A stretch of 38,491 nucleotides of DNA from NCBI GenBank assembly GCA_021741905.1, contig JAIOWZ010000011.1, positions 1-38,491 on the forward strand. Direction: 5' to 3'. The translations under genes were made by a program, and so were the position numbers. Position 1 is the stretch's first letter. Each line of letters starts with the position of its first letter. The notes below the pieces were generated by a model. The model did no database searches and was not told the origin of the DNA. It saw only the letters and a list, made by a program, of their open reading frames with translations. The DNA comes from Candidatus Planktophila sp. (GTDB lineage: Bacteria > Actinomycetota > Actinomycetes > Nanopelagicales > Nanopelagicaceae). Shown piece after piece: positions 31,126 to 33,264 of the stretch.

Positions 31126-32565
31126 ATGCGTAGAGCCAAGATTGTTTGCACGATGGGTCCAGCAGTTGAATCTCCTGAGAAGGTTAAGGAGCTCATCGAG
31201 GCGGGCATGAATATGGCTCGACTCAACCTGTCACATGGCGGTTATGAGGAGCATCAAACACGTTTAGATCGTGTGCGCGCTGCTGCAAAGGAGGCAGGAA
31301 CGCCTGTTGCAATCCTGGTTGACCTTCAAGGCCCGAAGATTCGCCTTGCACGATTTGCCAATGGTCCACATGAGTTAGAGCGTGGAGATATCTTCACAAT
31401 AACGACCGATGATGTTGAAGGAACCAAAGATCGCGTTGGAACTACCTATAAAGGTTTACCAGGAGATTGCAAACCCGGAGATCGCATTCTGATTGATGAT
31501 GGCAAAGTAACCGTCGAAGTTGTTGAAGTAAAAGGTAATGATGTTGTAACAAGAGTAATTCAGCCAGGCGCAGTAAGTAATAGCAAGGGTATTAACCTTC
31601 CAGGCGTAGCGGTTTCAGTACCGGCTCTTTCAGAAAAAGATAAAGAAGATCTGCGTTGGGGAATGAAAGCTGGTGCAGATTTTATTGCGCTTTCCTTTGT
31701 TAGAAACGCTGCTGACATTAAAGATGTCCACGCAATCATGGATGAAATTGGTTTCCGCATTCCGGTAATTGCTAAAATTGAAAAGCCACAAGCTGTCGAT
31801 AATCTGGAAGAAATTGTCGCAGCCTTTGATGGCATCATGGTCGCACGTGGCGATCTTGGAGTAGAGATGCCAATTGAAGAAGTGCCACTAGTTCAAAAGC
31901 GCTGTATTGAGTTAGCACGAGAGGCTGCGAAGCCGGTCATTGTTGCAACCCAGATGCTGGATTCAATGATCACTAACTCTTCACCTACTAGAGCTGAAGC
32001 AACAGATTGCGCCAACGCAGTACTAGATGGCGCAGATGCATTGATGTTGTCAGGTGAAACATCTGTTGGAGCATTTGCTATCGAAGCTGTTGCAACAATG
32101 GCACGCATTATTGCTCGCACCGAAGAAGGTGGATTCGAAATGATTCGCGCGTTGCGAACAACACCAAAGACAAAGGGTGGGGCAATTACCCGTGCAGCAG
32201 CTGAAGTAGGCGCAATTGTTGGCGCTAAGTACTTGGTGACCTTCACGCAATCAGGTGACTCTGCTCGCAGAATGGCGCGTCTGCGTTCACCCATTCCTAT
32301 TGTTGCTTTCACGCCAGAAGTTGGAACATATAACCGTCTTGCCTTGTCGTGGGGAGTTGAACCAGAGGTAACCCCAATGGTTAAGCACACCGATGAGATG
32401 GTCAAGCAGGCCGATACTTTGTTAATTGAATCTGGCCGCGCTCAAATCGGCGAAAATGTAGTCATCGTTGCAGGATCTCCTCCAGGAATTCCTGGCTCAA
32501 CCAATGCAATGCGTGTTCACGTTGTGGGAGATGCAGTTGGCGGGGTAGTAGCGGCATACCGCTAA
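31126..32565 (+). CDS. pyk: Pyruvate kinase
   Basis: Last glycolytic step, PEP and ADP to pyruvate and ATP. The 479-residue product starts MRRAKIVCTMGPAVESPEK, with the substrate blocks NMARLNLSHG, LVDLQGPKIR, the signature IAKIEKPQAVDNLEEI, VARGDLGVEMP, ATQMLDSM and LDGADALMLSGETSVG, and a C-terminal regulatory domain. ATG 31126 is preceded by TAAGG. The stop codon lies within TAAGAT, which may act as a -10 for the downstream tRNA. Conserved neighbour of pdtaR and gltD in Actinobacteria. Confidence 0.97.
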   Translation: MRRAKIVCTMGPAVESPEKVKELIEAGMNMARLNLSHGGYEEHQTRLDRVRAAAKEAGTPVAILVDLQGPKIRLARFANGPHELERGDIFTITTDDVEGTKDRVGTTYKGLPGDCKPGDRILIDDGKVTVEVVEVKGNDVVTRVIQPGAVSNSKGINLPGVAVSVPALSEKDKEDLRWGMKAGADFIALSFVRNAADIKDVHAIMDEIGFRIPVIAKIEKPQAVDNLEEIVAAFDGIMVARGDLGVEMPIEEVPLVQKRCIELAREAAKPVIVATQMLDSMITNSSPTRAEATDCANAVLDGADALMLSGETSVGAFAIEAVATMARIIARTEEGGFEMIRALRTTPKTKGGAITRAAAEVGAIVGAKYLVTFTQSGDSARRMARLRSPIPIVAFTPEVGTYNRLALSWGVEPEVTPMVKHTDEMVKQADTLLIESGRAQIGENVVIVAGSPPGIPGSTNAMRVHVVGDAVGGVVAAYR

Positions 32566-32581: not shown

Positions 32582-32654
32582 GCCTCGGTACTCCAACGGT
32601 AGAGAGGGCAGTCTCAAACACTGCATAGTGTCGGTTCGAATCCGACTCGGGGCA
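32582..32654 (+). tRNA. tRNA with CAA anticodon (Leu by anticodon), class I with short variable loop
   Basis: A complete 73-nt cloverleaf: acceptor GCCTCGG with TCGGGGC (one T-G and one G-T pair), D arm with GGTA and a stem of only three CTC/GAG pairs, anticodon stem GCAGT/ACTGC with loop CTCAAAC (anticodon CAA at 32615-32617, A37), variable loop of five bases (ATAGT), T arm GTCGG-TTCGAAT-CCGAC, and discriminator A73. CCA is not encoded. CAA reads UUG, a leucine codon, but bacterial tRNA-Leu normally has a long variable arm, which is absent here. The tRNA call is strong; the amino-acid identity is uncertain. Confidence 0.85.
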
Positions 32655-32688
32655 CGCTAGAAGTACTAATTGAAAGGATCACTTGAAC

Positions 32689-33264
32689 ATGAGCGTTCGG
32701 ATCCTTGTGGCAGAAGATGAAGCCTTAATTCGCATGGACCTTGTTGAAATGTTGCAAGGTGCCGGGTATGAAGTTGTTGCCCAAGCAACAAATGGACAAG
32801 AGGCAATTGATTTAGCCATAGAACATAAACCGGATCTTGCAATTCTTGATGTGAAGATGCCGATCCTTGACGGAATTTCTGCGGCAGAAAAGATTATTGA
32901 GATTGCTCCGGTTTTAATGCTGACCGCTTTTTCCCAAAAGGAGTTGGTGGATCGTGCACGCGATGCAGGAGTGATGGCCTATGTCGTCAAGCCCTTCACT
33001 ATCGGGGATTTAATGCCCGCCATAGAAATTGCAATTAGTAGGCATGTGCAAATGAGAACTTTGGCCGAAGAAGTAGCAGATCTCCATGACCGCCTTGAAA
33101 CACGCAAGCTCATAGACCGAGCAAAGGGCATTTTGATGAAAGCACTCAATCTTTCAGAGCCAGAAGCTTTCTCATGGATTCAAAGAGCGGCTATGGACCG
33201 TCGCCTTTCAATGAAAGATGTAGCTGAAGCGGTAATTAACCCCAACGCGGTGCCTGATAAGTAG
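32689..33264 (+). CDS. pdtaR: PdtaR-type response regulator with ANTAR RNA-binding domain
   Basis: Two-component regulator of 191 residues. The receiver domain (about 1-120) has acidic residues in AEDEA, phospho-acceptor Asp54 in AILDVKMP, Thr in MLTAFS and Lys in VVKPF. The C-terminal ANTAR domain (about 130-185) has the pattern LIDRAKGILMKALNLSEPEAF. ANTAR proteins bind paired hairpins in nascent RNA and prevent termination. Its usual partner is the PdtaS kinase, which is not in this window. The ATG at 32689 is chosen over TTG 32683 because AAAGGA (32673-32678) is then 10 nt away. It lies 34 nt after the tRNA. Confidence 0.92.
   Translation: MSVRILVAEDEALIRMDLVEMLQGAGYEVVAQATNGQEAIDLAIEHKPDLAILDVKMPILDGISAAEKIIEIAPVLMLTAFSQKELVDRARDAGVMAYVVKPFTIGDLMPAIEIAISRHVQMRTLAEEVADLHDRLETRKLIDRAKGILMKALNLSEPEAFSWIQRAAMDRRLSMKDVAEAVINPNAVPDK

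Follow-up and report, generated by a model that had tools for sequence, protein, structure and literature searches.

The long variable arm of tRNA-Leu was described in a 2023 review as being kept everywhere but in animal mitochondria, and the passages found in a 2020 review of non-canonical tRNAs contain no bacterial class I tRNA-Leu. In the tRNAscan-SE 2.0 paper a short human tRNA-Leu-CAA is treated as a doubtful gene by the long-arm criterion. Animal mitochondrial tRNA-Leu(UUR) is a UUR leucine tRNA without the long arm, whose identity is conferred by A73 and A14 (PMC9976931). Among bacteria, a tRNA-Leu(TAG) with a short variable loop occurs in an acquired tRNA cluster of M. mucogenicum/M. 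phocaicum, as an extra copy beside a class II isoacceptor (PMC6582537). For M. tuberculosis, long loops were stated for Leu-2, 3 and 5 only, implying that the other tRNA-Leu are short; this was a passing mention made for a toxin, and the structure was neither described nor interpreted (PMC11541572). A full-text literature search, with subscription journals outside its coverage, returned no paper describing the general class I tRNA-Leu pattern. Beyond the single cases mentioned or implied in these two mycobacterial papers, class I bacterial tRNA-Leu is apparently an undescribed and real exception to the long-arm rule.

Here we analysed a class I tRNA-Leu(CAA) gene in the window, the whole stretch of 38,491 nucleotides of Candidatus Planktophila sp. 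DNA. Unlike the mitochondrial molecule, which is organellar and served by a mitochondrial LeuRS, the encoded tRNA is stable, fully paired, chromosomal and accompanied by class II tRNA-Leu in the same cell, and unlike the M. mucogenicum/M. phocaicum copy it is the sole UUG-specific decoder. The class II tRNA-Leu(CAA) of other Actinomycetes shares with it the anticodon, A73, the 3-bp D stem, A14, A15-U48, the GGYAGA D loop and the pyk/ANTAR locus, but has an arm of 13-17 nt, G9 and G13 where the window tRNA has 5 nt, A9 and C13. Short tRNA-Leu of phages (Felixounavirus, cyanophages, Streptomyces and Mycobacterium phages) mostly have the same A9, C13, 5-nt variable loop, A15-U48 and A73, but are phage-carried and often have a UAA or UAG anticodon. 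With a probability of about 0.92, we regard the window gene as encoding a functional class I leucine tRNA that reads UUG and would be charged with leucine by the single bacterial-type LeuRS of the cell.

Structure of the tRNA gene

A tRNA-Leu(caa) was called by ARAGORN at 32582-32655 (+) as the sole tRNA gene of the window, and the Rfam model RF00005 matched 32582-32654 over its full length with 52.1 bits (gathering threshold 29), which assigns the sequence to the tRNA family. The features of the gene are as follows:

32582..32654, + strand: class I (short variable loop) tRNA-Leu(CAA) gene, G1 to A73 (ARAGORN, Rfam, direct reading)
32589..32590, + strand: U8 A9
32591..32606, + strand: leucine-type D arm with a 3-bp stem CTC/GAG and loop CAACGGTAGA; C13, A14, A15, G18 G19, A20a
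32615..32617, + strand: anticodon CAA, reader of UUG
32625..32629, + strand: 5-nt variable loop ATAGU in place of the class II arm; U48 pairs with A15
32654..32654, + strand: discriminator A73, the main leucine identity element (sequence; PMC9976931)

Direct reading of the sequence gave a 7-bp acceptor stem (GCCTCGG/TCGGGGC), a 5-bp anticodon stem (GCAGT/ACTGC) closing the loop CTCAAAC, and a T arm GTCGG-TTCGAAT-CCGAC with a 5-bp stem; position 26 is G and CCA is absent from the encoded gene. These values agree with the first-pass annotation, which had listed the same acceptor, anticodon and T stem lengths, a D stem of 3 bp and a variable loop of 5 nt. The variable region, 5 nt (ATAGT), falls short of the 10 nt or more of a class II tRNA-Leu, while the 3-bp D stem with a GGYAGA loop, also typical of class II tRNA-Leu, is present and the stem covaries. 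The molecule combines a class I body, with its 5-nt variable loop and rebuilt core (A9, C13, NYAGU), with a leucine-type D arm and all the known leucine identity elements. An antisense Rfam match to Plastid-ycf2 (20.7 bits, below the cut-off) was discarded, being the tRNA read backwards.

Conservation and covariation

In searches of 60 relatives, the 74-nt gene was 96-100% identical in nearly all same-genus genomes with a match, and identity to the window gene was 76-88% in other families of the class. A scan of GTDB genomes located the gene in Candidatus Planktophila, other Nanopelagicaceae and Nocardioides albus, a distribution that puts the window in the Nanopelagicales. Positional orthologues with a long arm, proposed at first pass as the mark of a sequence error, do occur in other genera and in sister species. 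Within the genus and family, however, every copy is short, so the short variable loop characterises the lineage and is no such error.

Covariation was assessed on an alignment of 15 diverse class I tRNA-Leu with CAA and UAA anticodons. Standard pairs filled 99.7% of the pair cells, a value that fell to about 50% when the partners were shifted by one base. Both sides had changed in 14 of the 20 pairs, every arm covaried, and none of 500 shuffles matched the observed covariation. The D stem occurs as CTC/GAG, GTC/GAC, GCC/GGC, GGC/GCC and TCC/GGA, and of 63 distinct class I sequences, 60 have A-U and 3 have G-C at the Levitt pair 15-48, a regularity equalled by none of 10000 shuffles.

These data bear on whether the gene could be a pseudogene, an assembly error or a relic that is not expressed, while a normal class II tRNA-Leu(CAA) lies elsewhere in the genome. 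Its ARAGORN and Rfam scores (52 bits) are lower than those of most tRNAs of the genome, which speaks for a relic; however, the stems are unbroken and constrained, relatives covary strongly, and the identical sequence recurs in independent genomes, complete ones included. Moreover, a complete congener has no class II CAA tRNA, and the class I and class II forms were alternatives, never occurring together, in the genomes sampled. We therefore consider a relic extremely improbable, and the pseudo-tRNA envisaged by the first-pass annotation is contradicted by the near-identity within the genus and the covariation. Tools that take the long arm as the mark of leucine would misjudge class I tRNA-Leu.

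Leucine tRNA set and amino acid identity

The complete congener G014 has 41 tRNA genes, and its leucine set consists of CAA (74 nt), UAA (74 nt), GAG (85 nt) and UAG (84 nt), so that UUR codons are read by class I tRNAs and CUN codons by class II tRNAs. Two class I matches were likewise obtained in other complete genomes of the group. In this congener no UUG-specific tRNA other than the short Leu(CAA) was found, and a second, class II tRNA-Leu(CAA), the presence of which had been raised as a check, is absent. The window tRNA and its sister class I tRNA-Leu(UAA) together form the whole UUR-decoding set of the lineage, CUN being left to ordinary class II tRNA-Leu.

Two unusual tRNA-like genes were also observed. 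One is a low-scoring but conserved gene called as tRNA-Gly(ACC) (L092:961-1035, corresponding to G000:C3:29263-29334 on the - strand; also L116 in G014), whose D region is Gln-like and whose anticodon arm is ill defined. The other is an odd, low-scoring Ala(TGC) call in G014 (L115, C1:1036066-1036139) with the anticodon loop tttttgcc, beside a normal Ala(TGC).

The meaning of UUG was evaluated on five window proteins (IleS, DnaE, GltB, GltD and Pyk) of this one genome, aligned to E. coli as the one reference. UUG stood opposite an E. coli leucine at 42 of 86 sites (49%), compared with 45% for UUA and 42-53% for the four CUN codons. The CAA anticodon belongs to a leucine codon and that codon is used for leucine, as expected of a leucine isoacceptor, and these alignments do not support a reassignment of UUG.

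As to charging, E. coli LeuRS requires A73, A15-U48, G18G19, A20a and D/T-loop contacts, whereas the long arm is dispensable and a truncated tRNA-Leu without it is still charged (PMC9976931). A14 and A73 have been named as identity elements of both E. coli and mitochondrial tRNA-Leu (PMC9976931). The window tRNA has all of A73, A14, A15-U48, G18G19 and A20a, and the same letters are present in essentially all class I relatives. A single leuS was counted per genome in 11 genomes of both kinds, with class I and with class II forms. Because the identity elements are present and the arm is dispensable for the E. coli enzyme, we strongly infer that the window tRNA is most likely a leucine tRNA charged by the single LeuRS; with these elements kept, the long arm would not be needed for charging.

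The first-pass annotation had also suggested that the molecule might carry another amino acid, which would imply either reassignment of UUG or deliberate mistranslation. A class I body unlike the classical bacterial tRNA-Leu gives this idea some ground, but UUG aligns with leucine as the CUN codons do, the identity set of A73, A14, A15-U48, GG and A20a is intact, and the complete congener has no other UUG-specific tRNA. The sequence also differs from the tRNAs of two mischarging candidates: a serine tRNA would have a long variable arm and G73 in place of the 5-nt loop and A73, and an alanine tRNA would have the G3-U70 recognised by AlaRS, where the window tRNA has C3-G70. SerRS depends on the long arm, so a tRNA without it would be unsuited to that enzyme, and most other synthetases read the anticodon. 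Charging with a non-leucine amino acid is accordingly very unlikely. Cells in which a single LeuRS serves leucine isoacceptors of both classes offer a ready natural test of the purpose of the arm.

The pyk/ANTAR locus

The tRNA gene lies between two protein genes, in agreement with the position given at first pass:

31126..32565, + strand: pyk, pyruvate kinase, a conserved neighbour; its stop codon is 16 nt before the tRNA
32689..33264, + strand: ANTAR-type response regulator (pdtaR-like), adjoining both class I and class II tRNA-Leu(CAA)

A tRNA-Leu(CAA) of class I or II is found beside the ANTAR gene in 170 of the 171 loci that hold an ANTAR gene, with gaps of 1-252 nt, and pyk is usually next to this pair across the class. 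The tRNA is on the ANTAR strand in Nanopelagicales and mostly on the opposite strand elsewhere.

The conserved linkage to an RNA-binding regulator, and the placement of the tRNA close upstream of the ANTAR gene on the same strand in the window, could suggest a regulatory tRNA-like RNA acting on the adjoining gene. An ordinary class II tRNA-Leu(CAA) shows equal linkage, however, the tRNA is usually on the opposite strand outside Nanopelagicales, and in the complete congener it is required as a decoder. ANTAR proteins, furthermore, target paired hexaloop motifs and not a tRNA. A regulatory role, one of the options initially put forward for this gene, is thus highly improbable, the neighbourhood being conserved for both classes and often with opposite orientation.

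Distribution and class switching

With an exact pattern that allowed for either anticodon and either tRNA class, 88 genomes of the class were searched and the matches were counted by hand. Leu(CAA) was class I in 44 genomes and class II in 24; for Leu(UAA) the corresponding numbers were 49 and 7. The rest had no exact match, and class I genes were retrieved from several of them with a covariance model. Other classes of the phylum have the short form as well. The first-pass suggestion of a class I tRNA-Leu(CAA) in this lineage is well supported, and the form is far broader than had been supposed: many actinobacteria read UUG and UUA with arm-less leucine tRNAs, although the arm was thought universal in bacterial tRNA-Leu. 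In a few hosts a class I tRNA-Leu(UAG) or (CAG) was observed (L156, L160, L168, L171; G049, G126, G101), the short form there reaching CUN codons. Several environmental MAGs titled Bifidobacterium breve or Streptomyces griseus (L200, L213, L255 and others) carry the Nanopelagicales-type tRNA and synteny, and their titles look wrong.

Comparison of the orthologous pyk-pdtaR gap in relatives, as advised at first pass, revealed either a short or a long tRNA-Leu(CAA), with switching even within genera: both classes occupy the locus in g48, g17, g41, g19 and g79. When the tRNA class is mapped onto a tree of 162 ANTAR proteins, at least 15 changes are required, against a mean of 30.5 and a minimum of 24 for shuffled labels; the number of changes is approximate, as the tree is built from a short protein, and the within-genus pairs are independent of it. 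Each of the 43 host class I sequences whose variable loop is 5 nt long has A9 and C13, whereas class II sequences have G9 in 33 of 33 and G13 in 29 of 33, and the D and anticodon stems also differ between the two forms. Since the classes differ beyond the arm, the switch looks like whole-gene replacement rather than arm trimming.

A simpler origin, compatible with a functional leucine tRNA, would be deletion of the arm from a resident class II gene followed by vertical inheritance without horizontal exchange. The unchanged locus and anticodon are in its favour, as is the T-stem GTGGG common to many class I and class II forms. We nevertheless hold this origin to be possible but doubtful, given that the D arm, positions 9 and 13 and the anticodon stem change along with the arm, that congeners switch, with at least 15 changes, and that the A9/C13/NYAGU core recurs in tRNAs whose anticodon is UAA, UAG, CAG or GAG, as well as in phages of many phyla. 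A 73-nt gene carries little phylogenetic signal, and the common A9/C13 could be partly a convergent structural compensation.

Phage relatives of the short gene

The same class I body was found in phages of Streptomyces, Mycobacterium, Rhodococcus and cyanobacteria, as well as in phages of Salmonella/E. coli (Felixounavirus), Pseudomonas, Bacillus, Lactobacillus, Acinetobacter and Myxococcus. One query, assembled from two mycobacterial-type tRNA sequences, was used solely to locate phage records. Phage class I sequences have A9 in 18 of 20 cases and A15-U48 and A73 in all 20. A search of a plasmid collection gave no match.

A class I tRNA-Leu(UAA) is represented by its 3' half at M. abscessus prophage record ends (L184:1-48) and, in Rhodococcus phage REQ2, beside the integrase (L328:269-345), which marks short tRNA-Leu genes as phage attachment sites. 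The host tRNA-Leu-CAA is the integration site of mycobacteriophages Omega and Gaia, the latter of which carries its own tRNA-Leu-CAA (PMC10865867). Attachment at tRNA-Leu combined with a phage-borne copy might provide a route by which a phage tRNA replaces the host gene. More tentatively than for its function, we propose that the class I form moves as an entire gene, perhaps between phages and hosts, and has repeatedly taken over the site of the class II gene; replacement driven by phages is plausible. A bolder version, which we regard as speculative and on balance improbable, is that arm-less tRNA-Leu is a mobile phage-borne kind, repeatedly displacing the class II gene at a fixed Actinomycetota locus, perhaps since toxins and defences that cleave or modify tRNAs miss its changed shape, which LeuRS still accepts. 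The coexistence of the two classes would equally allow tests of target choice by tRNA-targeting toxins and of the reshaping of essential host tRNA genes by phages. Finally, Rhodococcus phage Trina was seen to carry a class I tRNA-Leu(UAA) directly adjoining a class II tRNA-Leu(CAA) (L326:298-478).
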